From Streptomyces lunaelactis (GTDB lineage Bacteria; Actinomycetota; Actinomycetes; Streptomycetales; Streptomycetaceae), in NCBI RefSeq assembly GCF_003054555.1, contig NZ_CP026304.1:6944001-7008000 (forward strand): 64,000 bases of DNA. Direction: 5' to 3'. Made by a program: the position numbers and the translations under genes. Positions 13,356-36,011 of this stretch are shown piece after piece (positions within the stretch are counted from its first letter, which is position 1; every line of letters starts with the position of its first letter). The notes beneath the pieces are model-generated. The model did not search any database, was not told where the DNA came from, and worked only from the letters and a program-made list of their open reading frames with translations.

Positions 13356-15131
<1,776 letters not shown>

Positions 15132-17330: not shown

Positions 17331-17373
17331 AGCGTAATTTCGCAGGGAACGTATCGTCAACAGTTTGTTGAAA
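17331..17373 (-). promoter_or_regulatory. catalase promoter with TCAACA-N3-TGTTGA operator
   Basis: On the minus strand TTTCAACAAACTGTTGACG (17355-17373) contains a perfect 6-bp inverted repeat around 3 bases. Its right half overlaps a TTGACG -35 box. An 18-bp spacer leads to TACGCT (17331-17336). The uraD promoter has the same element in the same register. Confidence 0.75.
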
Positions 17374-17395
17374 TCGAAGTGTATGGTTCCGGGCA

Positions 17396-17439
17396 GCGGC
17401 AGCGCCTGGGCGCGACAGGACAGGTGTCAGCGCTGCCGC
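17396..17439 (-). terminator. terminator after hyi-glxR
   Basis: Inverted repeat GCGGCAGCGC / GCGCTGCCGC (arms 17396-17405 and 17430-17439) with a 24-base loop, placed between the glxR stop and the catalase promoter. Confidence 0.6.
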
Positions 17440-17479
17440 GGCCCGGAGTTCAGGGGGTGAGGCGGTGAGCCTCGGGTAC

Positions 17480-18370
17480 TCAGACCTGCTGGCCGGAGAG
17501 GCGCTCGACGGAGCGCAGCAGGGCGGAGTGGTCCAGGCCGCCGTCGCCCTGCGCGCGCAGGGAGGCGATCAGCTGGGCGACGACCGCGCCGACGGGCAGC
17601 GCGGCGCCGACATTGCGGGCGGCGTCGGTGACGATGCCCATGTCCTTGTGGTGCAGGTCGATCCGGAAGCCCGGAGCGAAGTCGCGGTTGAGGAAGTTGT
17701 CCTTCTTGCGGGTCAGCACGGTCGAGCCGGCCAGACCGCCGCCCAGGACGTCGAGCGCGGCGGCCAGGTCCACGCCGGACTTCTCCAGGAAGACCACGGC
17801 CTCGGCACAGGCCTGGATGTTGACCGCGACGATCAGCTGGTTGGCGGCCTTCACCGTCTGGCCCGAGCCGTGCGGGCCGCACAGCACGATGGTCCTGCCC
17901 AGGGCATCGAGGATCGGCTTGGCGCTGTCGAAGTCGGCCTGCTCGCCGCCGACCATGATGGACAGCACGGCCTCGATGGCGCCGGCCTCGCCGCCGGACA
18001 CCGGGGCGTCCAGCACGCGGATGCCCTTGTCCTTGGCCCTCTTGGCGAGGTCGACCGAGGTCTGCGGGGTGATCGAGGACATGTCGATCAGCAGGGCGCC
18101 GGACTTGGCGTTCTCCAGGATGCCGTCGGCGCCGTACGCGATCGCCTCGACCTGCGGGGAGGCGGGCACCATCGTGATGACGACATCGGCGTCCGCGACG
18201 GCCGCGGCGATCGAGGAGGCGGCCTTGCCGCCGGCCGCGGCCAGGCGGTCCAGCTTGTCCTGCTCCAGCGTGAAGCCCGTGACGTCGTAGCCCGCCTTCA
18301 GCAGGTTCTCGGACATGGGGGAACCCATGATGCCGAGGCCGATCCACGCGATCTTGGGGAGGGTGCTCAT
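17480..18370 (-). CDS. glxR: 2-hydroxy-3-oxopropionate (tartronate semialdehyde) reductase
   Basis: NAD(P)H-dependent reduction of tartronate semialdehyde to D-glycerate, the step after Gcl and Hyi. 296 aa of the beta-hydroxyacid dehydrogenase family. Landmarks are the N-terminal Rossmann box W-I-G-L-G-I-M-G-S-P-M, the substrate box D-A-P-V-S-G-G-E-A-G-A near 125, and the catalytic lysine in G-S-G-Q-T-V-K-A-A-N-Q. ATG 18370 was preferred over upstream in-frame codons because homology begins there. It follows hyi by 34 bases and is almost certainly cotranscribed from the hyi promoter. Confidence 0.92.
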   Translation of the reverse strand: MSTLPKIAWIGLGIMGSPMSENLLKAGYDVTGFTLEQDKLDRLAAAGGKAASSIAAAVADADVVITMVPASPQVEAIAYGADGILENAKSGALLIDMSSITPQTSVDLAKRAKDKGIRVLDAPVSGGEAGAIEAVLSIMVGGEQADFDSAKPILDALGRTIVLCGPHGSGQTVKAANQLIVAVNIQACAEAVVFLEKSGVDLAAALDVLGGGLAGSTVLTRKKDNFLNRDFAPGFRIDLHHKDMGIVTDAARNVGAALPVGAVVAQLIASLRAQGDGGLDHSALLRSVERLSGQQV

Positions 18371-18404
18371 GAGGGTGCCTCTCTCAAAACTCTTGTACGT
18401 AAAG

Positions 18405-19265
18405 TCAGTTGGCCGCACGCAGCGGCTGGGGGAGCCACTCGAAGCTGCCCGCGCTCGGGCGGTCGCCGGCCTTGTACTCGAGGCCGGTCCAGCCGTCGTA
18501 ACCGGCCTTCCTCAGGCGGCCGAGCAGGTCGACGAAGTCGAGGTCGCCGGTGCCCGGCGCGCCACGGCCCGGGTTGTCCGCGATCTGGACGTGGCCGGTC
18601 CTGTCGGCGTAGGCGGCGATGACCTCGTTGAGGTCCTCGCCGTTCATCGACAGGTGGTAGAGGTCGAGGAGGAACTTGGCGTTGCCAACGCCCGTCGCCG
18701 CGTTGACCTTGTCGACGACCTCGATCGCCGACGGGGCGCTCACCAGCGGGTAGAGCGGGGACTCCGGCTTGTTGAGGGTCTCGATCAGCAGGATCGCGCC
18801 GACCCGGTCGGCCGCGCGGGCGGCCAGCACCAGGTTCTCCAGGGCGAGGGTGTCCTGGACCTGCGGGTCGACGCCCTCGACGCGGTTGCCGTACAGCGCG
18901 TTGAGCGCCTTGCAGCCCACCGATGCGGCGAAGTCCGCGGCCACGTCGATGTTGGCGCGGAAGCGGTCGGACTCCTCGCCGGGCACGGAGAGTGCGCCGC
19001 GGTCGGGGCCCGGCAGCTGCCCGGCGTAGAAGTTCAGTCCCACCAGCTGGGTGCCGGCCTCGTCGAGCGCCTGCTTGAGGGCGTCGAGCTCGGCCTGCGG
19101 CGGGGTGGGGGTCTCGACCCAGGGCCACCACAGCTCGACCGCCGTGAAGCCCGCCGCGGCCGCGGCCGCGGGGCGCTCAAGGAGCGGGAGTTCCGTGAAG
19201 AGGATCGAAAGGTTTACATCGAAGCGCTGGTCCGTGCCGCGCTTGTCCCGAAAAAGGGAGGCCAT
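18405..19265 (-). CDS. hyi: hydroxypyruvate isomerase
   Basis: TIM-barrel isomerase interconverting hydroxypyruvate and tartronate semialdehyde (286 aa). Family opening D-V-N-L-S-I-L-F-T-E-L-P-L-L-E-R-P, then A-V-E-L-W-W-P-W, L-N-F-Y-A-G, and metal ligands in L-I-E-T-L-N, L-D-L-Y-H, H-V-Q-I-A-D-N-P-G-R and L-E-Y-K. Start ATG 19265 leaves ~20 residues before the family start; an internal codon could be the true one. First gene of hyi-glxR, downstream of tandem operators shared with gcl. Confidence 0.92.
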   Translation of the reverse strand: MASLFRDKRGTDQRFDVNLSILFTELPLLERPAAAAAAGFTAVELWWPWVETPTPPQAELDALKQALDEAGTQLVGLNFYAGQLPGPDRGALSVPGEESDRFRANIDVAADFAASVGCKALNALYGNRVEGVDPQVQDTLALENLVLAARAADRVGAILLIETLNKPESPLYPLVSAPSAIEVVDKVNAATGVGNAKFLLDLYHLSMNGEDLNEVIAAYADRTGHVQIADNPGRGAPGTGDLDFVDLLGRLRKAGYDGWTGLEYKAGDRPSAGSFEWLPQPLRAAN

Positions 19266-19281
19266 GAGGAGTATGCGCTCC

Positions 19282-19346
19282 TTCCGTATTGCGGAAGTCA
19301 GTTTCTGCTTGATGGAAGACTGCCTGGGGTGGGGAAGGACTGTCAA
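19282..19346 (-). promoter_or_regulatory. hyi promoter with tandem 15-bp operators
   Basis: Minus strand: TTGACA (19341-19346), 18-bp spacer, CAGTCT (19317-19322). The degenerate operator TTCCATCAAGCAGAA (19303-19317) and the palindrome TTCCGCAATACGGAA (19282-19296) start 21 bp apart. Order and spacing match the gcl pair. Confidence 0.75.
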
Positions 19347-19464
19347 GTGCCGAAACAAAAAAGCGGCCTCCCGGGCGGGGAGACGGAAGACCTGTCCAGG
19401 CTTCTGTCGTCCCAGCTCGGGAGGCACTCAGAGGTGTCCGGCGGGCGGTGCGGGCTCCTGCGGG

Positions 19465-20253: not shown

Positions 20254-20302
20254 GGTCTTGCTCCTCAGTGCTGGTGATACTGGTGTGTGCTCGGGCGCGC
20301 GG

Positions 20303-20854: not shown

Positions 20855-22131
20855 GCCAGAGGTCCGACGAGCATCCATTGCCACGAGTCCTTTCCGAACA
20901 CGCTCTGTTCGCCGCCCGTCGAGCCGATCTCGACAGGCGTTCCGTCCGGGCCGGTGGCGGTGCCGGTCTCCGGGTCGTACGGGGTGACGTACGCGACCGG
21001 GTCCGCCCCGCCGGAACCGGCGGATCCCGGGGCGCCAGGGACGTTCTGGGCGCCGCGGACCGAGGTGCCGCCGCCGCGCGGGGCCGCGCAGTGCGCCCCG
21101 GTGTTCGCCGGCCGTGTGCTGGTGTCCGAGGGGTCGCGCCGCTGCGTCGCGTAGCCCTGTCGGCACGGCGGTGGATCGTCGGCGCCCGCGACCATGCCGA
21201 AGTGGGTGGTGCCGTCGCCCGGGAGTACGGTGAAGCTGCCCGCGACCACCACCGGAAAGGTGACCAGGGCCTGCTCGACGCCGGGCAGCCGCGCCACCGT
21301 GATCTGGCCGCCGCTGATCAAATTGCCCAGGAGGACCGGCAGATGGGGCCTGTTGGCCTTCAGCAGCGAGTTCACCTCCTGTGCCGCGGGGGCGCCGGAG
21401 CCGATGACTCGGCGGATGTCACCGTCGCTCGATTTCAGTTCGGCGGTGAGGTCGGCCAGGTCGCGGGAGAACGACGTGATGGCCGAGCCCTGATCGGCCT
21501 GTGTCCTGAGGACTCTCCGTGAGTCCTCGATCAGCGCGATCGTCTGCGGCAGCGAGCCCGACGCCGACTCGACGAGCTCGTTGCCCGAATCCACCAGCCG
21601 GCTCAGGTGCGGACCGGTGCCGGCGAAGGCCTTGCCCAGCTCGTCGACCGTGATCCGCAGGTCCTCCTTGCCGACGGAGTTGACCAGCCGGTCCAGGCTG
21701 AGGATGAGATCCGTGGTGGGCAACGGCACCCGGGTGTCGCCGCGGGCGATCGTGCTGCCGTCCCGCAGATAGGGGCCGCCGGCGGCTCGCGGCTGCAGAT
21801 CGACGTACTGCTCGCCGACCGCCGAGCGGTTCGCCACCACCGCCAGGCTGTCCTGCGGGATCCGTGACGCGTTCTCGATGTCCAGCGCGACGGACACTCC
21901 GCCGGAACCGGTCAGCCGCAGTTCGCCGACGCGGCCCACCGGCACCCCGCGATAGGTGACTTCGGCGCCCGGGAACACGCCCCCGGAAGCGGCGAAGTCG
22001 GCCCGTACGGTGTAGGAGCGGTCGAAGAGGCTGTCGCCCAGCCCGGTGTACCGCGCGCCGACGTACGAGACGCCGACGGCGGTGAGAGTGGCGAAGGCGA
22101 GCAACTGGGCCTTGACCGTACGTGTGATCAC
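20851..22131 (-). CDS. MCE-family protein, sixth of operon (MceF-like)
   Basis: 426 aa. N-terminal helix (Q-L-L-A-F-A-T-L-T-A-V-G-V-S-Y-V-G) and MCE/MlaD domain (Y-T-V-R-A-D-F-A-A-S-G-G-V-F-P-G-A-E-V-T-Y-R-G-V, Q-Y-V-D-L). A long helical needle region follows, then a low-complexity C-terminus. MCE subunits form a hexameric tunnel carrying lipids or sterols to the YrbE permease. GTG 22131 overlaps the upstream TGA. Confidence 0.88.
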   Translation of the reverse strand: MITRTVKAQLLAFATLTAVGVSYVGARYTGLGDSLFDRSYTVRADFAASGGVFPGAEVTYRGVPVGRVGELRLTGSGGVSVALDIENASRIPQDSLAVVANRSAVGEQYVDLQPRAAGGPYLRDGSTIARGDTRVPLPTTDLILSLDRLVNSVGKEDLRITVDELGKAFAGTGPHLSRLVDSGNELVESASGSLPQTIALIEDSRRVLRTQADQGSAITSFSRDLADLTAELKSSDGDIRRVIGSGAPAAQEVNSLLKANRPHLPVLLGNLISGGQITVARLPGVEQALVTFPVVVAGSFTVLPGDGTTHFGMVAGADDPPPCRQGYATQRRDPSDTSTRPANTGAHCAAPRGGGTSVRGAQNVPGAPGSAGSGGADPVAYVTPYDPETGTATGPDGTPVEIGSTGGEQSVFGKDSWQWMLVGPLA

Positions 22132-23417
22132 GGTTGCATCCCCTTCAGCATCAGTTCGGCGAGGGCGAGATCGACCCCGGGCGGGTAGCGGTCGCCGTCC
22201 TCGCCCCCGTACACGGCGTAACTGCTGGTGCACACCGGCGGGCACAGCACCTCGTCGTCGTCCGAAGGCTTCGACGGGTCCGAAGGCACCGCGGGGGCGC
22301 CGGGCTTTTTCGGCAGCCCCGGCGTGCTGGGCAGCGACGTGGGCAGCGGGAGGCCGGGAACCCCGGGGACCTCCGGGAGCCCGGGCTTTCCGGGGGCGCC
22401 GGGCTTTGGGGGCTTGTCGGCGAGATTGCCGTAGACGCTCGCCAGATCGAGATCGGCGGTGATCTTGAGATTGACGTAGTCGCCCTTGATGGCGTCCGAG
22501 ACATTGCGCGGGAACGGATACGTCGTCAGGAGTTCCAGGGCGTTGGGCAGATCGCTGCCCGCCTTGTTCAGCTGTTCCAGGATCGGCCGCAGACTCCGCA
22601 GGTTGGCGACGAGGTCGTCCCGTGAGGCATTGACCACCTTGCTGCCCGTCACTCCCAGCTTCGAGAGCGAGGTGAGCATCCGGGTCAGATTGCGGCGCTG
22701 GTCGGCCAGCACTTTCAGAGCCGGCGGCATGGTGTCGACGGCCAGGGCGATCGTCTTCTTCTCGGCGCCGAGCCGGGCGGCCAGCCGGTTGATGCCCTGG
22801 AGCGCGCGGATGATCTCCTTGCGCTGGCCGTCCAGGCCGCCGAGGAAGGTGTCCAGCTCGCCGAGCAGGGATTTGACGCGGTTCTCCCGGCCCTCCAGGG
22901 CCTTGTTCAACTCCGTGGTGATCGTCTTGAGCTGGGCCACTCCGCCGCCGTTGAGCAGCGCCGAGAGTGCGGACAGCACCTCCTCGATCTCCGGATTGCG
23001 TCCGCTGCGGGACAGCGGGATCCGGGCGCCGTCGGAGAGCCTGCCGACGGGCGCGGTGTCCGCGGGGGCCGCCAGCGCCACGTACTTCTCGCCGAGCATG
23101 CTGGTCTGCCGCAGATCGGCTATCGCGTTGCCGGGCAGCTTCACGGAGTCGGCGACCCGCAGCCGTACCCGGGCGTGCCAGCCGACCAGCTCCACCTTCT
23201 CGACCGCGCCCACGGTGACGTTGTTGACCTTCACTGCCGACTGCGGCACCAGATCGAGGACGTCCCTGAACTCGACGGTGACCCGGTAGGCGTTGCCGTC
23301 GGCGGCCGCGCCGCCGGGCAGCCGGACGTCGTACAGGCCGTTGAACTCGCAGCCGGTGAGCAGCACTGAACCGACAGCCGTCCACACCGCCACCCCGGCC
23401 GTGCGCCGTACGCTCAT
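22128..23417 (-). CDS. MCE-family lipoprotein, fifth of operon (MceE-like)
   Basis: 429 aa. Signal peptide with lipobox L-L-T-G-C near residue 23, as in the lipoprotein position of mycobacterial mce operons. The MCE domain follows (V-T-V-E-F-R-D-V-L-D-L-V-P-Q-S-A-V-K-V), then long helices (N-L-T-R-M-L-T-S-L-S-K-L). A Pro/Gly-rich collagen-like stretch (G-L-P-x-V-P-G-V-P-G) precedes the C-terminus. ATGA/GTGA overlaps with both neighbours. Confidence 0.9.
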   Translation of the reverse strand: MSVRRTAGVAVWTAVGSVLLTGCEFNGLYDVRLPGGAAADGNAYRVTVEFRDVLDLVPQSAVKVNNVTVGAVEKVELVGWHARVRLRVADSVKLPGNAIADLRQTSMLGEKYVALAAPADTAPVGRLSDGARIPLSRSGRNPEIEEVLSALSALLNGGGVAQLKTITTELNKALEGRENRVKSLLGELDTFLGGLDGQRKEIIRALQGINRLAARLGAEKKTIALAVDTMPPALKVLADQRRNLTRMLTSLSKLGVTGSKVVNASRDDLVANLRSLRPILEQLNKAGSDLPNALELLTTYPFPRNVSDAIKGDYVNLKITADLDLASVYGNLADKPPKPGAPGKPGLPEVPGVPGLPLPTSLPSTPGLPKKPGAPAVPSDPSKPSDDDEVLCPPVCTSSYAVYGGEDGDRYPPGVDLALAELMLKGMQP

Positions 23418-24637
23418 GCTCGGGCCTCCAGGATTCCGCCGAGTGTCCTGTCGAGAGAGCCCGTGCCCGACACGGGCTTGGCCGACGGCAGTTCAGGCAG
23501 GGAGTCGAACAGCTTGGTGAGTTCGCCGCAGTCGGGGTTCTCTCCTCCGGCGTCCCCGGTCGTCCTGAGCAGGGAGCACAGCAGCGCGGCCGGATCCTGT
23601 GAAAGGTCCGGGTTGTTGCGGGTGTCCAGGGTGCCGGAGGACGGGTTGTAGGCGTTCTGCAGATTCGACAGCCCGGCGGGGGCGACCTCGAGCAGCTCCG
23701 CGAGTGCGGCGCGCTGGGTGACCAGCACCTTGGTGACCTTGCTGAGGCCCTTGACGTCCGCTGTCAGCGCCTTCTTGTTCTTCTTCACGAAGTCGGCCAC
23801 GTCACGGAGCGCCAGGCCCAGATGCCGCAGCGCCGCCGCGAGGTCCCCCCGCTCCCCGGCAAGCTGGCCGGCCACCTTGGCGAGGCTGTTGTTGAACGAC
23901 CGGACCGTGCTGTCGTCGGACGCCAGCACAGCGGTGAACACCTGCAGATTACGGACGGTGCCGAACAGGTCCTTCCGGCCGTCGGACAGTGTGGTGACCG
24001 CCAGCGACAGGTCCTCGACCGCCTGGTTCAACTGCCCGCCCTGGCCCTGGAGGTTGTCCGCGCTCACGCCGAGCAGCCGGGACAGCGAACCGTCCGCGTT
24101 GGCGCCGCGCGGCCCGAGCGCTTCGGCCGTCGTATGGAGACTGTCGAAGACGCGGTCCAGTTCGACCGGTACGGCCGTGCGGCTCTCGGGGATGACAGCG
24201 CCGTCCCGCATGGCCGGGCCGCTCCGGTACACCGGCAGCAGCTGGACGTAACGGTCGCTGACGACCGAGGAGTTGATGATGGCGGCCCGGGCATCCGCCG
24301 GGATCCTGCGGCCGGACTCGTACTCCAGCTCCACCCGCACCCGCTTCCCCTCCGGGGTGATCTTCCTGACCTCGCCGACACGGACACCGAGGACCCGTAC
24401 GTCCGAGCCGGGGTAGATGCCGACGGTGCGCGGGAAGTACGCCGTGACGCGGACCGGGGACGATGGCGGCCAGAACACGACCGTCGCTCCGGCGACGAGC
24501 GCCAGCACGACGACCAGCGCCAGGCGACGCGTGAGTCGTCGCTTCGGCAGGAAGCGCCCCATCGGCACCAGGCGCCCCGTCGGCAGGAAGCGCACCTTCG
24601 GCACCAGGCGCTCCTTCAGCGCGAAGCGGCCGTTCAT
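23414..24637 (-). CDS. MCE-family protein, fourth of operon (MceD-like)
   Basis: 407 aa. The N-terminus carries an unusual repetitive basic segment (R-L-V-P, R-F-L-P repeats, residues ~9-35) before the membrane helix (L-V-V-V-L-A-L-V-A-G-A-T-V-V-F). MCE domain: V-T-A-Y-F-P-R-T-V-G-I-Y-P-G-S-D-V-R-V-L-G-V-R-V-G. A needle of helices follows. ATG 24637 overlaps the upstream stop (ATGA). Confidence 0.88.
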   Translation of the reverse strand: MNGRFALKERLVPKVRFLPTGRLVPMGRFLPKRRLTRRLALVVVLALVAGATVVFWPPSSPVRVTAYFPRTVGIYPGSDVRVLGVRVGEVRKITPEGKRVRVELEYESGRRIPADARAAIINSSVVSDRYVQLLPVYRSGPAMRDGAVIPESRTAVPVELDRVFDSLHTTAEALGPRGANADGSLSRLLGVSADNLQGQGGQLNQAVEDLSLAVTTLSDGRKDLFGTVRNLQVFTAVLASDDSTVRSFNNSLAKVAGQLAGERGDLAAALRHLGLALRDVADFVKKNKKALTADVKGLSKVTKVLVTQRAALAELLEVAPAGLSNLQNAYNPSSGTLDTRNNPDLSQDPAALLCSLLRTTGDAGGENPDCGELTKLFDSLPELPSAKPVSGTGSLDRTLGGILEARA

Positions 24638-25617
24638 CGTGAGCCTCCAGTCCGCGGAGCCACCGGAGTGGGCGCGACCATGTTCTGGATGTAGCTGTCG
24701 AACCAACGGCCGTTGCCGAGGGTGTTGGTGAAGACGCGCACATAGGGCGCGAGCAGCTTGACGCTCCGGTCCAGGCTCGCCTGATTGCGTTCGAGCATGG
24801 TGACCACCGCGTTCAGGCCCTTGAGCGCCGGGCCGATCTCCTTGCGGTTGTCCGCGACCAGGCCGGAGAGCTGGATGCCGAGCGCGGCGGAGCTCTTGAG
24901 CAGCGCGTGGATCGCCGCCCGCCGCCCGTAGATCTCCTTGAACAGCTTGTCGCCGTCCTTGACCAGTACGCCGAAGTCGGCGGAGCGCTCGGAGAGCACC
25001 CCGGTGACTCCGTTGGCGTGGTCGAGGAGTTCCCGCAGAGCCTGGTCGCGGGAGGCCACCGTCCGGGAGATCTTCGAGAGACCCTTGATCGACGCCCGGA
25101 CCTCGGAGGGTGAGTCCTCGAAGGTGGTGGAGATCGTGTCCAGGGCGGTCGCCAGCCGCGCCGTGTCGACCTTCTCGGTGGTCGTGGTCAGATCGCTGAA
25201 CGCCGCCACGACGTCGTACGCGGCCACCGTCCGGTTCAGCGGGATCTCGCTGCCCGGCCGTAGCTGTCCCCGTCCCTTCGGCTGCAGCGCGAGGTACTTC
25301 GCGCCCAGGATCGTTTTGATCCTGATGGCCGCGCCGGTCCTGGTGCCGAACTCCGGGTCGCCCTTGACCCGGAAGGTCACCTTGACGTGGTCCCCGTCCA
25401 GATCGACCTCGTCGACCTTGCCGACCTTGACCCCGGCGATTCTCACCTCGTCGCCGGGCTTCAGTCCGCCCGCTTCGGAGAAGGCCGCGCTGTAGGTGTC
25501 ACCGCTGCCGATCACCGGGAGGCTGTCGGCATTGAACGCGGCTGCGGCCAGCAGCGCGAGCGTGGCGATGCCGACGGCCCCGATCACCGCGGGATTACGG
25601 TCACGGAAGGCAGTCAT
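24634..25617 (-). CDS. MCE-family protein, third of operon (MceC-like)
   Basis: 327 aa. Helix (A-V-I-G-A-V-G-I-A-T-L-A-L-L-A-A-A-A-F), then MCE domain (Y-S-A-A-F-S-E-A-G-G-L-K-P-G-D-E-V-R-I-A-G-V-K-V-G-K-V), then helical region. ATG 25617 makes an ATGA overlap with the preceding gene and is preferred over ATG 25623. Confidence 0.9.
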   Translation of the reverse strand: MTAFRDRNPAVIGAVGIATLALLAAAAFNADSLPVIGSGDTYSAAFSEAGGLKPGDEVRIAGVKVGKVDEVDLDGDHVKVTFRVKGDPEFGTRTGAAIRIKTILGAKYLALQPKGRGQLRPGSEIPLNRTVAAYDVVAAFSDLTTTTEKVDTARLATALDTISTTFEDSPSEVRASIKGLSKISRTVASRDQALRELLDHANGVTGVLSERSADFGVLVKDGDKLFKEIYGRRAAIHALLKSSAALGIQLSGLVADNRKEIGPALKGLNAVVTMLERNQASLDRSVKLLAPYVRVFTNTLGNGRWFDSYIQNMVAPTPVAPRTGGSR

Positions 25618-26648
25618 GCGCACCTCGCCCGGGCGACATGGAGCTCGGGAGTGATGACCTGTTCGGTCTTCGGCAGCACGATCCGGCCGTCGAAGTCACA
25701 GAGATAGAAGTTGAACCAGGAGCCGTACGAGGCGGTCCCCGTCAGCTTGTTGAGCTTGCTCGGCAGCCGCTTCAGCACGCCCTCCACCGTCTTCTCGTTG
25801 TCGTTCAGCGTTCCGGTGAGGTCGGTCAGCTCGGCGATGTCGTCCCGCAGCGGCGGACGGGCGTCCTCGAGCAGACCCGAGGTGGCCTCGGTCAGGGCGC
25901 CGATGTTCACCAGCGACGCGCCGATGGGCTTGCGGTCCGCGGACAGCCCGGATATCACCCGCTGCAACTGCTTGAGCAGGGCGGAGAAGCGGGCGCCGCG
26001 CTTGTCCACGGTCGTCAGCACCTCGTTGAGGTTGTCGATCACGGACCCGATCAGCTTGTCGCGGCCGGCGAGTGTGGTGGTCAGCGACGCCGTGTGGGCG
26101 AGCAGGCTGTTGACCGTCCCGCCCTCGCCCTGCAGGGTCTTGATGATCTCGGTGGCGAGCTGGTTGACGTCCTTCGGGCTCAGCGCCGCGAACAGCGGCT
26201 TGAACCCGCCGAGCAGCGCGTTGAGATCGAGTGCGGGCTGGGTCCTGGACAGGGGGATCCTGCCGCCGGGCTTCAGCCGCGCACCGCTGCCGGCGCCTTC
26301 CGTCAGCGCGACGTACCGCTGCCCCACCAGGCTCCGGTAGCGGATGACGGCGCCGGTCGTGGTGAACAGCGGGCGATCGTCGCTGACGCTGAACGTGACC
26401 TCGGCCAGCGTCCGGTCCTTGATGCCGACCTCCTGGACCTCCCCGACCCGTACGCCGGCCACCCTGATGTCGTCGCCCTCCTCCAGGCTGGTGACATCGC
26501 TGAACACCGCGCGGTAGGTGTGCTCCGAGGTGAAGGAGATGTTGACGATCGTCGCCGCGAGCAACGTCGTCGCCAGCACCGTCACCACCGCGAAGAGAAG
26601 GAACTTGACCAGCGGCGCCGCGGTCTCTGTGGCTCGGCCCACCCTCAT
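25614..26648 (-). CDS. MCE-family protein, second of operon (MceB-like)
   Basis: 344 aa. Helix at residues ~14-34, MCE domain (Y-R-A-V-F-S-D-V-T-S-L-E-E-G-D-D-I-R-V-A-G-V-R-V-G-E-V), coiled helical needle, and a C-terminal F-N-F-Y-L-C-D typical of MceB proteins. Overlaps both neighbours by 4 bases. Confidence 0.9.
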   Translation of the reverse strand: MRVGRATETAAPLVKFLLFAVVTVLATTLLAATIVNISFTSEHTYRAVFSDVTSLEEGDDIRVAGVRVGEVQEVGIKDRTLAEVTFSVSDDRPLFTTTGAVIRYRSLVGQRYVALTEGAGSGARLKPGGRIPLSRTQPALDLNALLGGFKPLFAALSPKDVNQLATEIIKTLQGEGGTVNSLLAHTASLTTTLAGRDKLIGSVIDNLNEVLTTVDKRGARFSALLKQLQRVISGLSADRKPIGASLVNIGALTEATSGLLEDARPPLRDDIAELTDLTGTLNDNEKTVEGVLKRLPSKLNKLTGTASYGSWFNFYLCDFDGRIVLPKTEQVITPELHVARARCA

Positions 26649-27916
26649 GCGACACTCACCGCCGTTCCGCGTGCCATCGGGCCGAACAGCAGTGTGGCGA
26701 CGGCCGGCACCTGGTCGGCGGGGACTCCCATGACCGGGGCCACCAGCGAGCCGATGGCGCGCTGCTCGTCCCGCGTGGAGGACACATGGGTCCCGCCGGG
26801 CAGGGCACCGCCCGGGCCCGTCCGCGACGTACCGTCATCGAGCTTGACGTCCGGCGCGGGCACATGGGGGTGGGGCAGACCTCTGCAGTCGGGTCCTGAG
26901 CGCTCTGCATAGCGCGGTTCCTCGCCGGGTCGGTATGCGGATCGTGGGCGGACGAATTCGAGCGTGATGTGCATCTCCCCGCCTCTGAAGGCCTTTTCGG
27001 ACGCCGCCTCCTGCTTCACCAGGCCGTCGAGGAGACAGGGGTACTCCGGTGCGTAGCGGGCGAACAGCGCCAGCGTGGGGCGGGAGACCCGCCCGAGCGT
27101 GATGAGCCGGTCGCCGTTCTCGTCGAGGAACGCGTCGGCGGTTCCGGCGGCGGTGGCGGTCGTCGTGAGCGCGGCGGCCAGCTGGTCCTGCTGCTCGACG
27201 AGGGTGCGGCTCGTGGTGACGGAGTTCCGCAGGATGCGCATCAGATCGGGGGCCGCGTCGCCGTACACCTCGGCGACGTCGGCGAACCGTGAAATGTCCT
27301 CCTTGAGGGACGGCAGATGCGGATTGAGCTCCCTCAGATAGCGCTCCAGGCGCGTGAGGTTGGCGCCGATCCGGTCACCCCGGCCTTCGAGAGCGGTGGA
27401 GAACGCGGACAGCGTGGCGTTGAGATCCGCCGGCCGCACGGTCCGCAGCAGCGGCAGCAGATCGTTCATCAGCTGCTGCACCTCGATGCCGACGCTGGTG
27501 CGGTCCTGGGTGATGACGTCCCCGGCGCGGATGTGCCGGGCGGACGGCTCGCGGGGTGCCACCAGGTCGACGTACTTCTCGCCGAACAGCGTCTTGGGCA
27601 GCAGCCGGGCATGCACATCCGCCGGGATCCGGGAGACGTGCTCCGGCTTGAGCGCGATGCCGAGCGTCGCCTTCTCGCCGTCGGCCCGCACCTCGCGCAC
27701 CTCGCCGACCAGCAGACCGCGCAGTTTGACGTCGGCCCGCGGATCCAGCTGATTGCCCAGGGTGTCGGCCTCCAGCGTGATCCGTACGACGGTGGTGAAC
27801 GCCTGCCGGTACACGGCGACGGACAGCGACAGCAGGAGCGCGATGAAGGCGATGAAGACGATTCCGTAGAGCCGCAGTTGTGCGCCGCGCGTCGGGAGGA
27901 GTCCTGGTATTCGCAT
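26645..27916 (-). CDS. MCE-family protein, first of operon (MceA-like)
   Basis: 423 aa. N-terminal helix (L-Y-G-I-V-F-I-A-F-I-A-L-L-L-S-L-S-V-A-V-Y), MCE domain (D-P-R-A-D-V-K-L-R-G-L-L-V-G-E-V), K-T-L-F-G-E-K-Y-V-D-L, then a helical needle and an extended C-terminus (M-G-V-P-A-D-Q-V-P-A) characteristic of MceA. ATG 27916 lies 5 bases after the YrbEB-like stop. Confidence 0.9.
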   Translation of the reverse strand: MRIPGLLPTRGAQLRLYGIVFIAFIALLLSLSVAVYRQAFTTVVRITLEADTLGNQLDPRADVKLRGLLVGEVREVRADGEKATLGIALKPEHVSRIPADVHARLLPKTLFGEKYVDLVAPREPSARHIRAGDVITQDRTSVGIEVQQLMNDLLPLLRTVRPADLNATLSAFSTALEGRGDRIGANLTRLERYLRELNPHLPSLKEDISRFADVAEVYGDAAPDLMRILRNSVTTSRTLVEQQDQLAAALTTTATAAGTADAFLDENGDRLITLGRVSRPTLALFARYAPEYPCLLDGLVKQEAASEKAFRGGEMHITLEFVRPRSAYRPGEEPRYAERSGPDCRGLPHPHVPAPDVKLDDGTSRTGPGGALPGGTHVSSTRDEQRAIGSLVAPVMGVPADQVPAVATLLFGPMARGTAVSVA

Positions 27917-27921
27917 CGGCG

Positions 27922-28749
27922 CTACCCCGCAATCCGTACGGTCGTGCTGGCGCCCCAGATCGCCAGGCTGAGGAAGAAGTCGAGAAGGTTGATGGCGACG
28001 ATGGACGTTCGCACGGCACGGCCGACCGCGACCCCGACGCCGGCCGGGCCGCCGCTCGCGTAGTAGCCGTAGTAGCAGTGCACCAGGATGATCACGACGG
28101 CGAAGACGATCACCTTGCCGAAGGACCACAGCACGTCGACCGGCGGCAGATACTGCTGGAAGTAGTGGTCGTAGGTGCCCGCGGACTGGCCGTAGTAGCC
28201 GGTGGTGATGGTGCGCGCCGCGAAGTACGAGGACAGCAGCCCGACCACGTACAGCGGGATCACTGCGACGAAACCGGCGATCATCCGGGTGGTCACCAGG
28301 AACGGCAGCGAGGGAACGCCCATCACTTCAAGGGCGTCGGTCTCCTCGCTGATCCGCATCGCGCCGAGCTGGGCGGTGAACCCGGCCCCGACCGTCGCGG
28401 ACAGGGCGAGGCCGGCCACCAGCGGGGCGATCTCACGGGTGTTGAAGTACGCCGAGAGGAACGCCACGAAGTTGGACGTGCCGAGCTGGTTGAGGGCCGC
28501 GTACCCCTGCAGGCCGACCTCGGTGCCGGTGAAGAAGGACAGGAAGGCGATGACGCCGACGGTGCCGCCGACGACCGCCAGCGCGCCGCGGCCGAAGCTC
28601 ACTTCGGCCAGCAGGCGCAGGATCTCCTTCTTGTAGCGGCGCAGAGTCCGGCCGGTCCAGGCCAGCGAGCGCCCGTAGAAGGACAGCTGGGCGCCGAGCT
28701 CCTCCAGGGAGCGGAGTGGAAGCCCCATGAAACGACTGATGAGCGCCAC
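27922..28749 (-). CDS. YrbE/MlaE-type permease B of mce transporter
   Basis: 275-aa integral membrane subunit with five or six helices. MlaE landmarks: V-G-A-G-F-T-A-Q-L-G-A-M-R-I-S-E-E-T-D-A-L-E-V-M-G shows the E-E-x-D-A-L-x-V-M-G coupling motif for the ATPase, and G-G-P-A-G-V-G-V-A-V-G lies near the C-terminus. GTG 28749 sits immediately after the YrbEA stop; ATG 28725 is an alternative. Confidence 0.9.
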   Translation of the reverse strand: MALISRFMGLPLRSLEELGAQLSFYGRSLAWTGRTLRRYKKEILRLLAEVSFGRGALAVVGGTVGVIAFLSFFTGTEVGLQGYAALNQLGTSNFVAFLSAYFNTREIAPLVAGLALSATVGAGFTAQLGAMRISEETDALEVMGVPSLPFLVTTRMIAGFVAVIPLYVVGLLSSYFAARTITTGYYGQSAGTYDHYFQQYLPPVDVLWSFGKVIVFAVVIILVHCYYGYYASGGPAGVGVAVGRAVRTSIVAINLLDFFLSLAIWGASTTVRIAG

Positions 28750-28751
28750 GG

Positions 28752-29522
28752 TCAGCCCCTCTGCGGAACGATTTGGAAGTACACCGCGGTCATCACGAAG
28801 TTCGTCACGAAGAGCAACATGAAGGTGATCACCACCGACTGGTTCACCGCGTCGCCGACGCCCTTCGGGCCGCCCTTGGCGGTCAGGCCCTTGTACGAGG
28901 CGACGATGGCGGCGATGGCGCCGAACACCAGGGCCTTCAGCTCGGCCGCCCACAGATCCGACAGCTGCGCGAGGGTGGTGAAGGAGGCGAGATACGCGCC
29001 CGGCGTGCCGTTCTGCAGGATCACGTTGAAGAAGTAGCCACCGGCCACACCGACGACCGACACCAGTCCGTTGAGCAGCACCGCCACCACCATCGTGGCC
29101 AGCACTCTCGGCACGACCAGCCGGTGGATCGGGTCGATGCCCAGCACCTGCATCGCGTCGATCTCCTCGCGGATCTTGCGCGCCCCGAGGTCCGCGCAGA
29201 TCGCCGTGCCTCCCGCTCCGGCGATCAGCAGTGCGGTGACGATTGGGGAGGCCTCCCGCAGTACCGCGAGCACCGAGGCCGCGCCCGAGAACGACTGGGC
29301 GCCGAGCTGCCGGGTCAGGCTGCCGATCTGCAGCGCGATGACCGCGCCGAAGGGGATGGAGACCAGCGCGGTGGGGAGGATCGTGACGCTGGCGATGAAC
29401 CAGGCCTGCTGGATGAACTCCCGCATCTGGAAGGGTCGTCGCGGCAGCGTTCGCAGCACGTCCAGCGCCATCGCGAAGAGGCTCCCGGTGTGCCGCAGAC
29501 CCGCAGTCGGAGAAAGGCTCAT
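28752..29522 (-). CDS. YrbE/MlaE-type permease A of mce transporter
   Basis: 256 aa, paralogous to the next gene. It has G-A-G-G-T-A-I-C-A-D-L-G-A-R-K-I-R-E-E-I-D-A-M-Q-V-L-G (coupling motif) and K-G-G-P-K-G-V-G-D-A-V-N. ATG 29522 overlaps the ATPase stop. Together with YrbEB it forms the inner-membrane channel of the lipid importer. Confidence 0.9.
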   Translation of the reverse strand: MSLSPTAGLRHTGSLFAMALDVLRTLPRRPFQMREFIQQAWFIASVTILPTALVSIPFGAVIALQIGSLTRQLGAQSFSGAASVLAVLREASPIVTALLIAGAGGTAICADLGARKIREEIDAMQVLGIDPIHRLVVPRVLATMVVAVLLNGLVSVVGVAGGYFFNVILQNGTPGAYLASFTTLAQLSDLWAAELKALVFGAIAAIVASYKGLTAKGGPKGVGDAVNQSVVITFMLLFVTNFVMTAVYFQIVPQRG

Positions 29523-30424
29523 GCGTGCGCCCCCTCCCGCTCGGCGATGGACTCCCAGCGGGGCGGGCGGACGATCCCCGGGCTCGGCAGCAGGCGCGGG
29601 GTGACGACGGCACCGGCTGTGTCGTCGAGACCCGCCAGCTCCTGCTCGACCTGGGCGGCGTCCTTCTCCTCCGCCATGCCGATCGGCCCCTGCATGCGGC
29701 CGTTCAGGAACTGCCGTACGACCGGCTGGTCGCTGGTCAGCAGCTGTTCGCGGGGGCCGAACAGCACCAGCTCGCGCCGGAACAGCAGCCCGATGTTGTC
29801 CGGGACCTGCCGGGCGGAGGCGATGTCGTGCGTGACGATGAGAAAGGTCGCGTCGATCTGCGCGTTGAGATCGACGATCAGCTGGTTGAGGTACGCCACC
29901 CGCACGGGGTCGAGACCCGAGTCGGGTTCGTCGAACAGAATGATCTCCGGATCCAGCACCAGGGCCCGCGCCAGCCCGGCCCGTTTACGCATACCACCGG
30001 ATATCTCGCCGGGCAGCTTCTCCTCGGCGCCGATCAGCCCGACCATGTCCATCTTCTCGAGCACGATCCGTCTGATCCCGCTCTCGGGCTTACGGGTGTG
30101 CTCACGCAGCGGGAAGGCGATGTTGTCGTACAGATTCATCGACCCGAACAGCGCGCCGTCCTGGAACAGCACGCCGAACAGCTTCCGTATCTCGTACAGG
30201 TCGTGTTCGCGGAGCCGGGTGATGTCGGTGCCCGCGATCCGGATCGAGCCGCGTTCCGGCTTGAGCAGCCCGACGAGCGTCTTGAGGAACACCGACTTGC
30301 CCGTGCCCGAAGGGCCGAGCATCACCGAGACCTCCCCGGCCGGCAGCGTCAGCGAGACGTCCTGCCAGATGACCTGGTGGCCGAAGGACTTGGTCAGCCC
30401 CTCCACGCAGATCTCGACACCCAT
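29519..30424 (-). CDS. MceG/MlaF-like ABC ATPase
   Basis: 301 aa. Walker A G-P-S-G-T-G-K-S at 37-44, Q-loop F-G-V-L-F-Q-D-G-A-L-F, ABC signature I-S-G-G-M-R-K-R, Walker B I-I-L-F-D-E-P-D-S-G-L-D, H-loop V-T-H-D. A ~60-residue C-terminal tail follows. It powers the mce importer and is the first gene of the eleven-gene operon; in mycobacteria this subunit is often unlinked, here it is in cis. ATG 30424 (GGAAGG upstream) is preferred over GTG 30433. Confidence 0.92.
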   Translation of the reverse strand: MGVEICVEGLTKSFGHQVIWQDVSLTLPAGEVSVMLGPSGTGKSVFLKTLVGLLKPERGSIRIAGTDITRLREHDLYEIRKLFGVLFQDGALFGSMNLYDNIAFPLREHTRKPESGIRRIVLEKMDMVGLIGAEEKLPGEISGGMRKRAGLARALVLDPEIILFDEPDSGLDPVRVAYLNQLIVDLNAQIDATFLIVTHDIASARQVPDNIGLLFRRELVLFGPREQLLTSDQPVVRQFLNGRMQGPIGMAEEKDAAQVEQELAGLDDTAGAVVTPRLLPSPGIVRPPRWESIAEREGAHA

Positions 30425-30555
30425 CCGGTTCACCCTTCCGCCGTGAAAGCAGCTCTGACATCTGCTCTACGGGGAAGGGCGGCCCGTCCGTCGCGACGAG
30501 GCGAAGATTTTTTTACGAGCCCGGAATCAGGGCGGAATCAGGGTGGAACAGGGCC

Positions 30556-30750
30556 TAAGCGGCCCCGGGGAAGTCCGGGCGGCGTCGCGGGCCGATGGCT
30601 GTCGCCTGGCTGCGTTGTCGTCAGTCGCCGACGCTCCGCGTGGACTCCTTCCTCCGCCTTGCCAGACTCGGCCCTCGACCCTCCCCCGTAGCCCTGCGGG
30701 CACGGGGGTGCCCCCACCTTCACCCACCCGGACTTCCCCGACACCGCTTA
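30556..30750. mobile_element. 195-bp MITE, copy 1 (IS630-like ends, TA duplication in CTAG)
   Basis: The 27-bp ends are imperfect inverted repeats (TAAGCGG, 3 variable bases, CGGGGAAGTCCGGG, 1 variable, GG): 23 of 27 positions agree. TA occurs at both borders, and C and G flank it outside, so the pre-insertion site was CTAG. No transposase is encoded. A second copy lies inverted at 63152-63346 with three base differences that I can count. The right end supplies the stop codon of the sigma factor gene. Confidence 0.85.
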
Positions 30751-31869
30751 GCGGTTCGGGAGCACCTGCGGCACGGATGCGTTCGCCTCCGGCTCCGTGG
30801 GGAGCGGCTGCCGCAGCAGGGGCACGGACGGCAGCTCCGACGCCGCAGGCAGGTCGGGTACGGCGGGCAGATCCGGTACGGCGGGCAGGTCCGGTGCGGA
30901 CGTGAGGTCGGGTACGGCGGGCAGATCCGGTACGGCGGGCAGGTCCGGTGCGGACGTGAGGTCGGGCACGGCGGTCAGGTCCGGGACAGGGACCGCCGGC
31001 ACAGCCGTTACATTGGGAATGTCCGGCATGTCGGGCGCGGGTAGCGGCAGGTCCGGCAGCGCAGGCAGCGGGGGCACGATGAGCCCCGGGCCGCCGTACC
31101 GCTGCGTCCCGGCCGTGCCGGCACCCTGACCGGCATCCGTGCTGCTGCCGGGGGCCGGCGCCACGCCACCCGCCGTCGGCGATTGCACGTCCGTGAACTC
31201 CGAGACGGCAGGGACCGCCGGGCGCGATCGGTGCGGCCCGTCCCCGTCATGGGCGTACGGCAGGATCAGGCCCGCGACCGCCAGCGTCGCCGCGGTCGAA
31301 GCCACCGCCACCGCCTGCGCGTTCCCGCCCCGCGGGCGGCCACGTCCGATCAGCCACAGCGCCAGCCCCAGCGTTCCGGCCAGCGAATTGCGCAGCGTCC
31401 GGCGAGCCCGCGCCAGCAGTGACTCGACCGTCCGGTAGCTCAGCCCCATCTTCGTGGCGACCTGGTCCACGTCCAGATCCTCGGCCTTGAGCCACAGCGC
31501 CTCGGCCTGGCGGGCCGGCAGCTCCCCGCTCCGGCGCGCCAGCCATTTCGCCTCGGCCCGGTCGCAGACCGCCTCCTCCACCGGCACCGGGACCGGTGCG
31601 AGCAGCCTGGGGCTGCTGCGCACCTCGGTCTCACGGTTGACCTGCCGGTAGCGGTCCACGCACAGCCGCATCGTCACCGTCGTCAGCCAGGCGCCCAGCC
31701 GTTCCTCGTCCAGATGAGGGTTCTCGGCAGCACGCAGCATCGCCTCGTGCACGGCGTCCTCGGCGTCCTCCAGGCTCATGGACCTGCGGCGGGCCACCTT
31801 GAGAAGCTGCTCGCGGTGGGCCCACGCGCGCTGCCACCGCTCGTGCGCCCCTTGCGTGTCCGTCGTCAT
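30748..31869 (-). CDS. ECF sigma factor with membrane helix and repetitive extracytoplasmic tail
   Basis: 373 aa. Sigma region 2 spans ~20-80 (S-L-E-D-A-E-D-A-V-H-E-A-M-L-R-A, W-L-T-T-V-T-M-R-L-C-V-D-R-Y-R). Region 4 spans ~118-160 (L-P-A-R-Q-A-E-A-L-W-L, Y-R-T-V-E-S-L-L-A-R-A-R-R). A hydrophobic segment at ~186-206 follows, then a Pro-rich tail with P-D-L-P-A-V-P-D-L-T-S-A repeats. The tail would lie outside the membrane, making this a membrane-tethered sigma factor rather than one held by a separate anti-sigma. ATG 31869 follows AAGGGG. Its TAA comes from the MITE; before insertion it was TAG at the same codon. Confidence 0.85.
   Translation of the reverse strand: MTTDTQGAHERWQRAWAHREQLLKVARRRSMSLEDAEDAVHEAMLRAAENPHLDEERLGAWLTTVTMRLCVDRYRQVNRETEVRSSPRLLAPVPVPVEEAVCDRAEAKWLARRSGELPARQAEALWLKAEDLDVDQVATKMGLSYRTVESLLARARRTLRNSLAGTLGLALWLIGRGRPRGGNAQAVAVASTAATLAVAGLILPYAHDGDGPHRSRPAVPAVSEFTDVQSPTAGGVAPAPGSSTDAGQGAGTAGTQRYGGPGLIVPPLPALPDLPLPAPDMPDIPNVTAVPAVPVPDLTAVPDLTSAPDLPAVPDLPAVPDLTSAPDLPAVPDLPAVPDLPAASELPSVPLLRQPLPTEPEANASVPQVLPNR
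30851..30958 (-). repeat. perfect 54-bp tandem duplication in sigma factor tail
   Basis: Positions 30851-30904 and 30905-30958 are identical, adding 18 codons of the P-D-L repeat. Each unit itself contains smaller repeats (GGTACGGCGGGCAG), so the tail grew by nested duplication. Confidence 0.95.
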
Positions 31870-31926
31870 GAGGGCCCCTTCGCTCTCACCCCGGCCGGAC
31901 ACGGTGCTTGCCCGGCGCGGGGGAGA

Positions 31927-32991
31927 TTACCGCCCGGTAGCGGGGGTTGTGGAGGGGGAGGCGCGCATCGAGTCCTTTCCGTTGCTGGTCAACGCACCGA
32001 CGCCGGGCAGCCCGGCAATGGGGCTCGGGACCGGAAGCAGCGGCGCTTCCGGTTCCGCGCCGCCGCCCGCACTCTTGGAAGGCGAGGGTGAAGAGGTGGG
32101 CGTCGGGGAGGACTTGGGTCCGCCGTCCCGGTCGCCCGGGCGGGCAGGAGCTGCGGAGGAGACCGGATGCCGAGACGTGTCCGACGGCTTCGGCTTCGGG
32201 CGGACGGCCGGTCCGGAACCGTTGTCCGGCACGACCCGGTGACCTTCCAGGTAGTACGCGAACCATGCCCTGACCGTGCGCACATACGCAGTGGAGTGGT
32301 TGTAGCCGAGGATCGCGCGGTCCAGGTCCGCCGCGTCGGACAGATCCCGCCCGCCCGCGCACAGATAGCGCCCCGCTGCGAGGGACGCGTCGTAGATGTT
32401 GCCCGGATCGCGGTGTCCGTCGCCGTTGCCGTCGGAGCCCCAGGCGGCCCAGGTTGACGGGATGAACTGCATCGGGCCGACGGCACGGTCGTACGCGACG
32501 TCCCCGTCGTACACCCCGCTGTCGGTGTCCCTGATGGCGGCGAACCCGTTGCCGTCGAGCCGCGGGCCGAGGATCGGTGTGAGCGTCGTGCCGTCCGCGG
32601 TCACCCGGCCGCCGTGCGCCTGCCCGGACTCGACCTGGCCGATCGCGGCAAGCAGCTGCCAGCGCAGCCAGCAGTCTGGCCTGCTGTCCGCGAGTCCCTC
32701 CTCGGCGTGCAGGTACGCGGCCAGGACGGTGGCCGGCAACGCGCCGCCGACCGGTCCGCCGGAGCCCTCCGCGCTTTCGGTGCCGCCTGCCGCTCCGCGC
32801 GTCCTCAGCGGCGGAAACTCGGTGCGGTAAGGGGTGTCGCCGGAGACGCTCGGACCCGGCGGGGCCGGGTGAGTCTTCGCCGGAGCCGAGGCGCGTGCCG
32901 TCGGTCCCGGGGCCTGCGAGGCGGTCAGTGCCGCCATGGCCGCCGTAACGACCGCTGTCGCCTTGACACCTCCGCGCTTGCGTCCTGTCAT
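31927..32991 (-). CDS. secreted lytic transglycosylase (SLT/MltB-like)
   Basis: 354 aa. N-terminal signal-like helix (residues ~9-27). The catalytic domain spans ~85-235, with the likely catalytic glutamate E121 in A-A-I-G-Q-V-E-S-G, then G-P-M-Q-F-I-P-S-T-W-A-A-W-G and L-G-Y-N-H-S-T-A-Y-V. A disordered Pro/Ser tail follows. It cleaves peptidoglycan glycan strands outside the cell. ATG 32991 has GGAGGGG upstream. It lies 57 bases upstream of the sigma factor gene in the same direction, so the two may form a cell-envelope unit. Confidence 0.85.
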   Translation of the reverse strand: MTGRKRGGVKATAVVTAAMAALTASQAPGPTARASAPAKTHPAPPGPSVSGDTPYRTEFPPLRTRGAAGGTESAEGSGGPVGGALPATVLAAYLHAEEGLADSRPDCWLRWQLLAAIGQVESGQAHGGRVTADGTTLTPILGPRLDGNGFAAIRDTDSGVYDGDVAYDRAVGPMQFIPSTWAAWGSDGNGDGHRDPGNIYDASLAAGRYLCAGGRDLSDAADLDRAILGYNHSTAYVRTVRAWFAYYLEGHRVVPDNGSGPAVRPKPKPSDTSRHPVSSAAPARPGDRDGGPKSSPTPTSSPSPSKSAGGGAEPEAPLLPVPSPIAGLPGVGALTSNGKDSMRASPSTTPATGR

Positions 32992-33138
32992 GATGCAGAC
33001 CCCTCCCAGTGCGGCTGTTGCGCGGCGTTTCTTCACCTGCTCTACGCGGCACCGGCGCAGGTCCGTCGCAGGGAGTCGTACCTTTTCCGTGCCGGGAGGG
33101 CCGACGACGGCGCGCGAGCGCGCGGCTAACGTGGGGGC

Positions 33139-33393
33139 ATGGAGCGATTGCGGGTGGAGTTCACCACCGAACCCTTCGACCTTGACGAGGCGCCCGCCCA
33201 CGCGGTGGTCGCCCGCGAGGTCATCCAGGCGGCCGAGCTGGACGCCGTGGACGTAGGCCCGTTCGGCAACACCGCGGAAGGCAGCGCGGACGCGGTGCTC
33301 ACAGCCGTGGACGCGCTGCTGCGCCGGTCCCTGGAGGCCGGTGCCACGCGGGTCTCGTTGCAGGTGAATGTGATCGGGGAGGGGGAGAAGTGA
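33139..33393 (+). CDS. thiamine-binding-like small protein (YkoF/MTH1187 type)
   Basis: 84 aa. Pattern of the small thiamine-binding/DUF77 fold: R-V-E-F-T-T-E-P-F, A-x-D-V-G-P-F-G-N-T-A-E-G, and a C-terminal strand R-V-S-L-Q-V-N-V-I. TAACGT (33127-33132) lies 6 bases before ATG with no Shine-Dalgarno, so it is probably leaderless. Its stop overlaps the next start (GTGA). Ligand not established. Confidence 0.65.
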   Translation: MERLRVEFTTEPFDLDEAPAHAVVAREVIQAAELDAVDVGPFGNTAEGSADAVLTAVDALLRRSLEAGATRVSLQVNVIGEGEK

Positions 33394-33767
33394 CCGAGCC
33401 CGGAGACCACCCCCTGGTCAGCGCCGTGAAGCCGCTGGTCGACGCGATGGGCGCGGAGATACTCAGGCCGGACCAGGCCGACCCCGACGATGTGGTGCTC
33501 GCCTGGGAGGGCGAGGACGTACTCGCCGTACGGCTCCCGCAGCTCTCGGACTCGCTGGACCACATTCTGGCCGCGATGGAGCGGCGGCACGGCATGCCCC
33601 TGGCGGAGCTGGACCGCAAGACGAAGCAGTTGGTCGTACGGACCCTGGAGGCGCGGGGCGCCTTCTCCGTACGGCACGGCGTGGAGACGGTGGCCGGCGC
33701 CCTGGGGGTCAGCCGCTTCACCGTCTACAACTATCTGAACAGGGAAAACGCCGCCAAGGACAGCTGA
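33390..33767 (+). CDS. HTH protein upstream of the uricase operon
   Basis: 125 aa. The N-terminal ~70 residues have no recognised family. The C-terminus is a Fis-like/PucR-C-like helix-turn-helix (RTLEARGAFSVRHGVETVAG, then A-L-G-V-S-R-F-T-V-Y-N-Y-L-N-R). GTG 33390 overlaps the preceding stop. Being coupled to a small ligand-binding-type protein and followed by uraD-hiuH-uox, it is a candidate regulator of the TCAACA-N3-TGTTGA sites. That is inference only. Confidence 0.7.
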   Translation: MTEPGDHPLVSAVKPLVDAMGAEILRPDQADPDDVVLAWEGEDVLAVRLPQLSDSLDHILAAMERRHGMPLAELDRKTKQLVVRTLEARGAFSVRHGVETVAGALGVSRFTVYNYLNRENAAKDS

Positions 33768-33782
33768 GCACGCGCAGTCGCG

Positions 33783-33811
33783 AGCCGTCGTCCGGTGTCC
33801 GGGCGACGGCT
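33783..33811 (+). terminator. terminator between HTH gene and uraD
   Basis: Stem AGCCGTCG/CGACGGCT extended by CCGG/CCGG around TGT, followed by TTT. It separates the HTH operon from the uraD promoter. Confidence 0.8.
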
Positions 33812-33826
33812 TTCGTGTTGCCGAGT

Positions 33827-33869
33827 TTTCAACAAAGTGTTGACGCAATGTTGCCGGAGGGCGTTAGCT
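33827..33869 (+). promoter_or_regulatory. uraD promoter with TCAACA-N3-TGTTGA operator
   Basis: TTTCAACAAAGTGTTGACG (33827-33845) differs by one base from the catalase element. The -35 TTGACG (33840-33845) overlaps the right half-site; TTAGCT (33864-33869) follows after 18 bp. Confidence 0.7.
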
Positions 33870-35851: not shown

Positions 35852-36011
35852 AGCCCGGAGGTGAGCGGGGGCATCTGCGCAACACCTGCGCGCAGGTCCG
35901 CGATGATCGCGAAGGTCCGCGATGATGCGGTCGTACGTGCAGCACGGACTCGGTCGTCACCCCGCTCGGCCCCCGGGTCCGTACATCCGAGTGGAAGAAC
36001 GAGGAACCGCC

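Follow-up and report, generated by a model that had tools for sequence, protein, structure and literature searches.

Why should a catalase gene and a urate breakdown operon, 16 kb apart and on opposite strands, carry the same palindrome over their promoters? The question arises in a 64-kb stretch of the Streptomyces lunaelactis genome (NZ_CP026304.1, positions 6,944,001 to 7,008,000; in the following called the window, with coordinates counted from its first base). A first-pass annotation had pointed to two 19-mers in the same promoter register and proposed one regulator for both, since uricase makes H2O2 and catalase removes it. Re-reading the window, we found both 19-mers exactly as described, with a single base difference. 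We call the motif element A, TTTCAACAAA[C/G]TGTTGACG, with the core TCAACA-N3-TGTTGA and the general type TTCAACA-N3-TGTTGAA. It is probably the operator of a purine-catabolism regulon, read by a dimer of a small HTH_22 protein that would act as a repressor and be relieved by a purine-pathway signal.

At the catalase promoter, element A reads TTTCAACAAACTGTTGACG (17355..17373, minus strand) and contains the -35 box TTGACG (17355..17360) within its 3′ arm. The -10 box TACGCT (17331..17336) follows after a spacer of 18 bp, and the ATG at 17285 lies 69 bp past the element. At the promoter of the uraD-uraH-uricase operon it reads TTTCAACAAAGTGTTGACG (33827..33845, plus strand), with TTGACG (33840..33845) again within the 3′ arm, the -10 box TTAGCT (33864..33869) after 18 bp and the GTG at 33918, 72 bp past the element. 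All boxes were read from the sequence, and the previously described -35 overlap and 18-bp spacing hold at both promoters.

Allowing two mismatches to the core, the window contains four sites against 0.58 expected, a number reached in none of 100 shuffles. In the whole genome (8.57 Mb) there are only three perfect cores, at catalase, uraD and urease, and none of the reversed control pattern; dinucleotide shuffles of both 200-bp upstream regions produced no perfect site in 6000. Three sites genome-wide are not the dozens of unrelated ones that the first-pass annotation had named as grounds for abandoning its proposal. A whole-genome scan at up to three mismatches yielded many scattered sites, and we therefore used only perfect and one-mismatch cores unless stated otherwise. 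The third perfect core lies about 60 bp ahead of ureA in the urease operon (ureC and ureF identified by Pfam, ureA from in-frame reading) and adjoins a TetR-family gene. A one-mismatch core, 30 kb outside the window, separates an AllR-like (IclR-family) gene from the genes for allantoinase and allantoicase. The proposed pair of promoters is thus real, but the set is larger than two, including urease with a perfect core and allantoinase with one mismatch.

The element is conserved at orthologous promoters, as the first-pass annotation had suggested checking. We found uraD in 31 of 31 Streptomyces genomes, and all 30 loci fetched show a perfect core with similar spacing; the one further uraD, that of genome G010, was read on its own and differs at a single core position. 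Orthologues of the catalase (87-100% identity) are present in 20 of the 31 genomes, each time with a perfect core, which was found in none of ten fetched loci of catalase paralogues (19 matches, 68-72% identity). The register is nearly rigid in the fetched loci: TTAGCT follows at 17-19 bp in 28 of 30 uraD promoters and TANNCT at 17-18 bp in all 20 catalase promoters. Between allR and allB, the core occurs in all 79 loci with enough sequence, taken from the best 80 named loci of more (one perfect, 78 with one mismatch), and the flanks of these loci contain a single site at up to one mismatch in 472,530 positions. This combination of a conserved element and few sites gives good support, by comparative genomics, to the idea that one regulator serves uricase and catalase. 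Our literature search, which covered few subscription papers, returned no report tying the two to a single regulator in Streptomyces.

Perfect cores are present in 98 of 101 Streptomyces genomes, one to five in each, and the reversed control in none or one copy. To delineate the targets we assigned 78 distinct perfect sites, read on 69 stretches that come from 29 of the 98 genomes with sites, a survey that does not contain every site of each genome. The sites lie at uraD (29), at catalase (14, plus one over a catalase-like piece), at urease (two, with 85.9 and 90% identity to ureA), at allantoinase (two) and at genes with a DUF6986 domain (two); 12 are at the start of a cyclophilin-like gene, 12 inside a conserved MarR-family gene, and four are unassigned. 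Element A is strongly specific for urate breakdown and catalase; the presence of the cyclophilin-like gene in the set is unexplained.

Several of these sites deserve a description of their own (loci and genomes are given by L and G numbers). The cyclophilin-like (PF04126) gene lies beside cydA, with element A a few bases ahead of its start (L186, L187, L201, L202 and others); in the genome of the window only a short remnant of the gene is left (L040, remnant 9532-9660), with a one-mismatch site near 9508. In the MarR-family gene, the perfect core has the centre GCC/GGC and lies inside the coding sequence at 12 loci (L185 at 1501 and 11 more), probably a coding coincidence. At the DUF6986 sites of two Streptomyces (L191 at 1501, L350 at 1143) an open frame spans the site, but the domain begins only after it, and we therefore read both sites as upstream. 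A DUF6986 (HpcH/HpaI-like) gene also occurs near allantoicase in Nocardia (L404, 15031-16209) and near uricase in G146 (L387, 17268-18464); given element A in the two Streptomyces and these neighbours elsewhere, the gene may belong to purine breakdown. A perfect element A over a partial catalase match (L335 at 2067, G009) and another after glxR without an assigned gene (L195 at 1501, G099) are possible orphan sites.

Which protein reads element A? Just ahead of the uraD promoter, a gene at 33390..33767 (plus strand) encodes a protein of 125 amino acids with an HTH_22 domain (PF13309, E 7.5e-20, residues 56-117), and its start is overlapped by a gene for a thiamine-binding-like protein (33139..33393, plus strand; PF01910, E 1.5e-5, just above the cut-off). 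This small uncharacterised HTH_22 protein, encoded beside the uric acid genes, probably reads element A. Compared with Pfam at E up to 0.001, it matches HTH_22 only and shows no PAS domain. The predicted structure (mean pLDDT 84.9, pTM 0.57) begins with a short N-terminal part of helix and strand and has a helix-turn-helix (HTH) at the C-terminal side; in the recognition helix, RFTVYNYLNR is invariant except for one V/I position in the 37 sequences aligned of 240 listed. Because the protein lacks the PAS sensor of YheO-type regulators, the thiamine-binding-like partner is a reasonable candidate sensor. The partner gene is next to the HTH_22 gene in 35 of 35 loci, and 33 of these stretches also contain a perfect element A.

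The pairing with element A extends beyond Streptomyces. In Tsukamurella tyrosinosolvens (Mycobacteriales), overlapping thiamine-binding and HTH_22 genes face uraD-uraH-pucL with a perfect element A between them. In G146, from another actinomycete family, an HTH_22 gene lies ahead of uricase, again with a perfect element A between, and a second perfect copy precedes a gene with xanthine dehydrogenase-type domains. Conversely, four uricase loci without a nearby HTH_22 gene (Nonomuraea, Arthrobacter, Rhodococcus and Nocardia) have no element A within one mismatch at uraD. Within Streptomyces, a plasmid record (L400) keeps element A at uraD with the HTH_22 gene about 5 kb away. Only G010, G043 and G050 of the 101 genomes lack a perfect element A; the HTH_22 gene is split by a frameshift in G010 and was not found in G043 and G050 (the latter 82% complete). 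In the site listing and fetched loci of G247, G293 and G371, which are without HTH_22, no perfect element A was found except inside the MarR-family gene. Hence, the HTH protein at 33390, already named by the first-pass annotation, is our best candidate, and its co-occurrence with element A outside Streptomyces would fit this role. A search of 296 genomes of the class gave a single HTH_22 match outside Streptomyces and probably underestimates the spread of the protein, as homologues from several further genera of actinobacteria are named in the protein database. Judged by gene order, the S. coelicolor orthologue is probably SCO6208, listed as a putative transposase in an excerpt of PMC3897704.

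How would the regulator act? At uraD and catalase the -35 box is overlaid by element A. The allantoinase promoter has the element downstream of its -35 box and ahead of the start codon (boxes read from the sequence), and at the cyclophilin-like gene element A stops a few bases short of the start codon. With the element over the -35 box, or downstream of it at allantoinase, repression is the simplest mechanism: a dimer of the HTH_22 protein would bind element A and block RNA polymerase. A purine-pathway signal, with urate or allantoin as the obvious guesses, would lift the repression and turn on the conversion of urate to allantoin, the enzymes allantoinase and urease, and a dedicated catalase to remove the H2O2 that uricase produces. 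The pathway, and not peroxide, would then induce the catalase ahead of time, and the thiamine-binding-like partner may have a sensory role. According to excerpts of PMC6629963, a dispersed strain of S. coelicolor raised its uraD, allantoinase, allantoicase and xanthine dehydrogenase genes together; SCO6209, SCO6247, SCO6248 and SCO4972 are listed there as jointly raised. In the wild type under oxidative stress the uricase operon falls, dependent on another system, as stated in an excerpt of PMC4991794; peroxide is therefore an unlikely inducer of this operon, and we infer a purine signal instead. A tentative extension is a two-protein purine sensor, in which the PAS-less HTH_22 repressor would sense urate or a derivative via its thiamine-binding-like partner and control uricase along with urease and the dedicated catalase; detoxification would then be running before peroxide appears.

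Several observations weigh against an HTH_22 repressor at element A. Two of the 35 HTH_22 stretches (L263 and L270) have no perfect element A, although the contig of L270 contains an element-A-bearing uraD elsewhere (L323). The Arthrobacter uricase locus does have a one-mismatch element A, more than 2 kb from uraD. Of the four uricase records without a nearby HTH_22 gene, three cover only part of a replicon and may have such a gene farther away. In G010, uraD keeps a one-mismatch element A despite the frameshifted HTH_22 gene. G043, G050, G293 and G371 may simply be without the target genes (uraD was not searched for in G050, G293 and G371). G247 keeps its uricase operon, and there a single deletion, by which the beginning of the thiamine-binding-like gene became fused to the -10 region of uraD (L305), removed HTH_22 together with element A, so the loss of the element at uraD is not independent evidence. 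Twelve perfect sites are at the cyclophilin-like gene, which has no known link to urate. Repression itself is deduced only from the position of the element, and catalase is not among the co-raised genes in the excerpted text of PMC6629963.

The catalase gene (15828..17285, minus strand; PF00199 at E 1.7e-188 and PF06628, NCBIfam match below cut-off) sits between the glyoxylate genes, namely glyoxylate carboligase gcl (13299..15131, plus strand; TIGR01504, above cut-off) on one side and, on the other, tartronate semialdehyde reductase glxR (17480..18418, minus strand, uncertain start; TIGR01505, above cut-off) with the hydroxypyruvate isomerase-like hyi (18405..19265, minus strand, start inferred, open frame from 19265; best match TIGR03234 at E 3.5e-90, below cut-off). 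Upstream of gcl and hyi we found another palindrome, B, TTCCGnAnTnCGGAA, of which exact copies in the form CTTCCGCAWTACGGAA occur only twice in the genome. It reads TTCCGCATTACGGAA at gcl (13280..13294, plus strand) and TTCCGCAATACGGAA at hyi (19282..19296, minus strand). Over a set of 21 loci, made up of the window and 20 relatives, B with at most one mismatch is present in 13 of 15 assessable gcl upstream regions and in all 21 of hyi; the best match to element A in these regions has at least four mismatches. As gcl and hyi carry B and catalase carries A, the catalase is wired to uricase and not to its own neighbours, and B probably serves the glyoxylate genes as an operator of their own. In the allR gap, too, another conserved palindrome is present near allR (TTTCCAC-N3-GTGGAA-like; 27 of the 79 gaps aligned), which resembles palindrome B.

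On the uricase side, element A stands before uraD (33918..34433; OHCU decarboxylase, TIGR03180, PRK13798), uraH (34433..34837; hydroxyisourate hydrolase, TIGR02962) and uricase (34843..35766; urate oxidase, the H2O2 source, TIGR03383 at E 7.2e-108). These are followed by an 8-oxoguanine deaminase-like gene (35922..37388; PRK08203) and a xanthine/urate permease gene (37516..39042; TIGR03173, pbuX). All five are on the plus strand, and the matches of uraD, uraH, the deaminase-like gene and the permease are above cut-off. The region between both elements contains an MCE-family operon (22128-30433), which includes an MlaE-like permease and an ABC ATPase and has no obvious purine link.

Could another protein be the reader of element A? 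AllR of S. coelicolor, an IclR-family protein, reportedly controls the allantoin pathway genes, as Navone and others are said to have described in 2015, and element A might be its operator, with the uricase, catalase and urease promoters as further AllR targets. We consider this rather unlikely, yet it has facts in its favour. Element A adjoins the AllR-like gene in the allR-allB gap of all 79 loci, AllR-like genes are present in 99 of the 101 Streptomyces genomes, and in G247, without HTH_22, the allantoinase site has drifted to another perfect palindrome, TTCGACG-N3-CGTCGAA. Of random A/T-change triples, about 2% would give this kind of symmetry, so some dimer may still read this site, and AllR stays a rival because the palindrome suggests a persisting reader. 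The recognition helix of AllR is nevertheless identical in G247 although the site has changed. An AllR-like gene is retained in G010 and G043 without any perfect element A, the allR-allB gap of G010 has none within two mismatches, and G073 carries element A at uraD although no AllR-like gene was found in its 1140 contigs. The regulator beside element A and uricase in Tsukamurella and G146 is HTH_22, with the AllR-like gene of G146 about 25 kb away. The TTTCCAC-N3-GTGGAA-like palindrome near allR, in our reading, suits AllR better, and the TTCC-type palindromes at the allR promoter, gcl and hyi are more likely what AllR would read.

Compatible with an HTH_22 operator is an arrangement in which both proteins act, HTH_22 at all A sites and AllR as a second layer at allantoinase via the TTCC-type palindrome; the urate half and the glyoxylate half of the pathway would then be controlled stepwise. 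In the allR-allB gap the two palindromes are both conserved, and the gcl and hyi upstream regions combine palindrome B (13/15 and 21/21) with no element A within three mismatches; on the other side, the assignment of B to AllR is itself presumptive, and we regard the arrangement as evenly poised. That a different regulator reads element A while HTH_22 merely travels with the uricase genes seems improbable. The palindrome kept at allantoinase in G247 would fit such a regulator, and the linkage of HTH_22 to uricase could make their co-loss trivial, but the pairing with element A recurs in two distant lineages (Tsukamurella and G146), and in L400 the element stays at uraD with HTH_22 some 5 kb off. 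A chance match of two -35 regions, although the 3′ arm overlaps a common -35 hexamer, has a negligible probability in view of the shuffles (0/6000) and the three sites in 8.57 Mb; we rejected it because the element is conserved at the orthologous uraD (30/30) and catalase (20/20) promoters.

The proposed HTH_22 control resembles known systems in part. HucR, MftR and PecS are urate-responsive repressors of the MarR family. The likeness is a pathway-sensing repressor over urate catabolism; the difference is that the operator here is another one and the uricase-adjacent regulator is HTH_22 and not MarR. No MarR-family regulator was found directly beside uricase, where the neighbour has PF13309 only, and HTH_22 is also the neighbour in Tsukamurella. 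With the AllR regulon of S. coelicolor the set shares the principle of one repressor over purine and allantoin genes, and an AllR-like gene stands beside one element A; here, however, the candidate is not of the IclR family, the set has uricase, catalase and urease, and the glyoxylate genes use another palindrome. Peroxide-sensing control by CatR or OxyR likewise fits catalase expression to the H2O2 load, whereas here the wiring would be to the peroxide-making enzyme and not to peroxide. The HTH_22-type DNA-binding domain is common to our candidate and the YheO-type regulators (PAS_6 plus HTH). Compared with the YheO/DauR family, the candidate has the HTH_22 domain, but about 55 N-terminal residues take the place of the YheO-like PAS domain, and the partner is thiamine-binding-like and not an L-PSP protein. 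A small adjacent partner gene is shared with Cj1387c of Campylobacter, whose loss raised expression of the adjacent gene in a repressor-like manner, as described in an excerpt of PMC4519771.

If the HTH_22 protein does control these promoters, the uricase genes of Streptomyces would gain a regulator, and one of several catalases would be explained by purine breakdown and not by general stress. A target would also be given to an uncharacterised pair of HTH_22 and thiamine-binding-like proteins that, besides Streptomyces, occurs in at least two more lineages of actinobacteria, and testable predictions would follow for urease, allantoinase and the unstudied cyclophilin-like gene.

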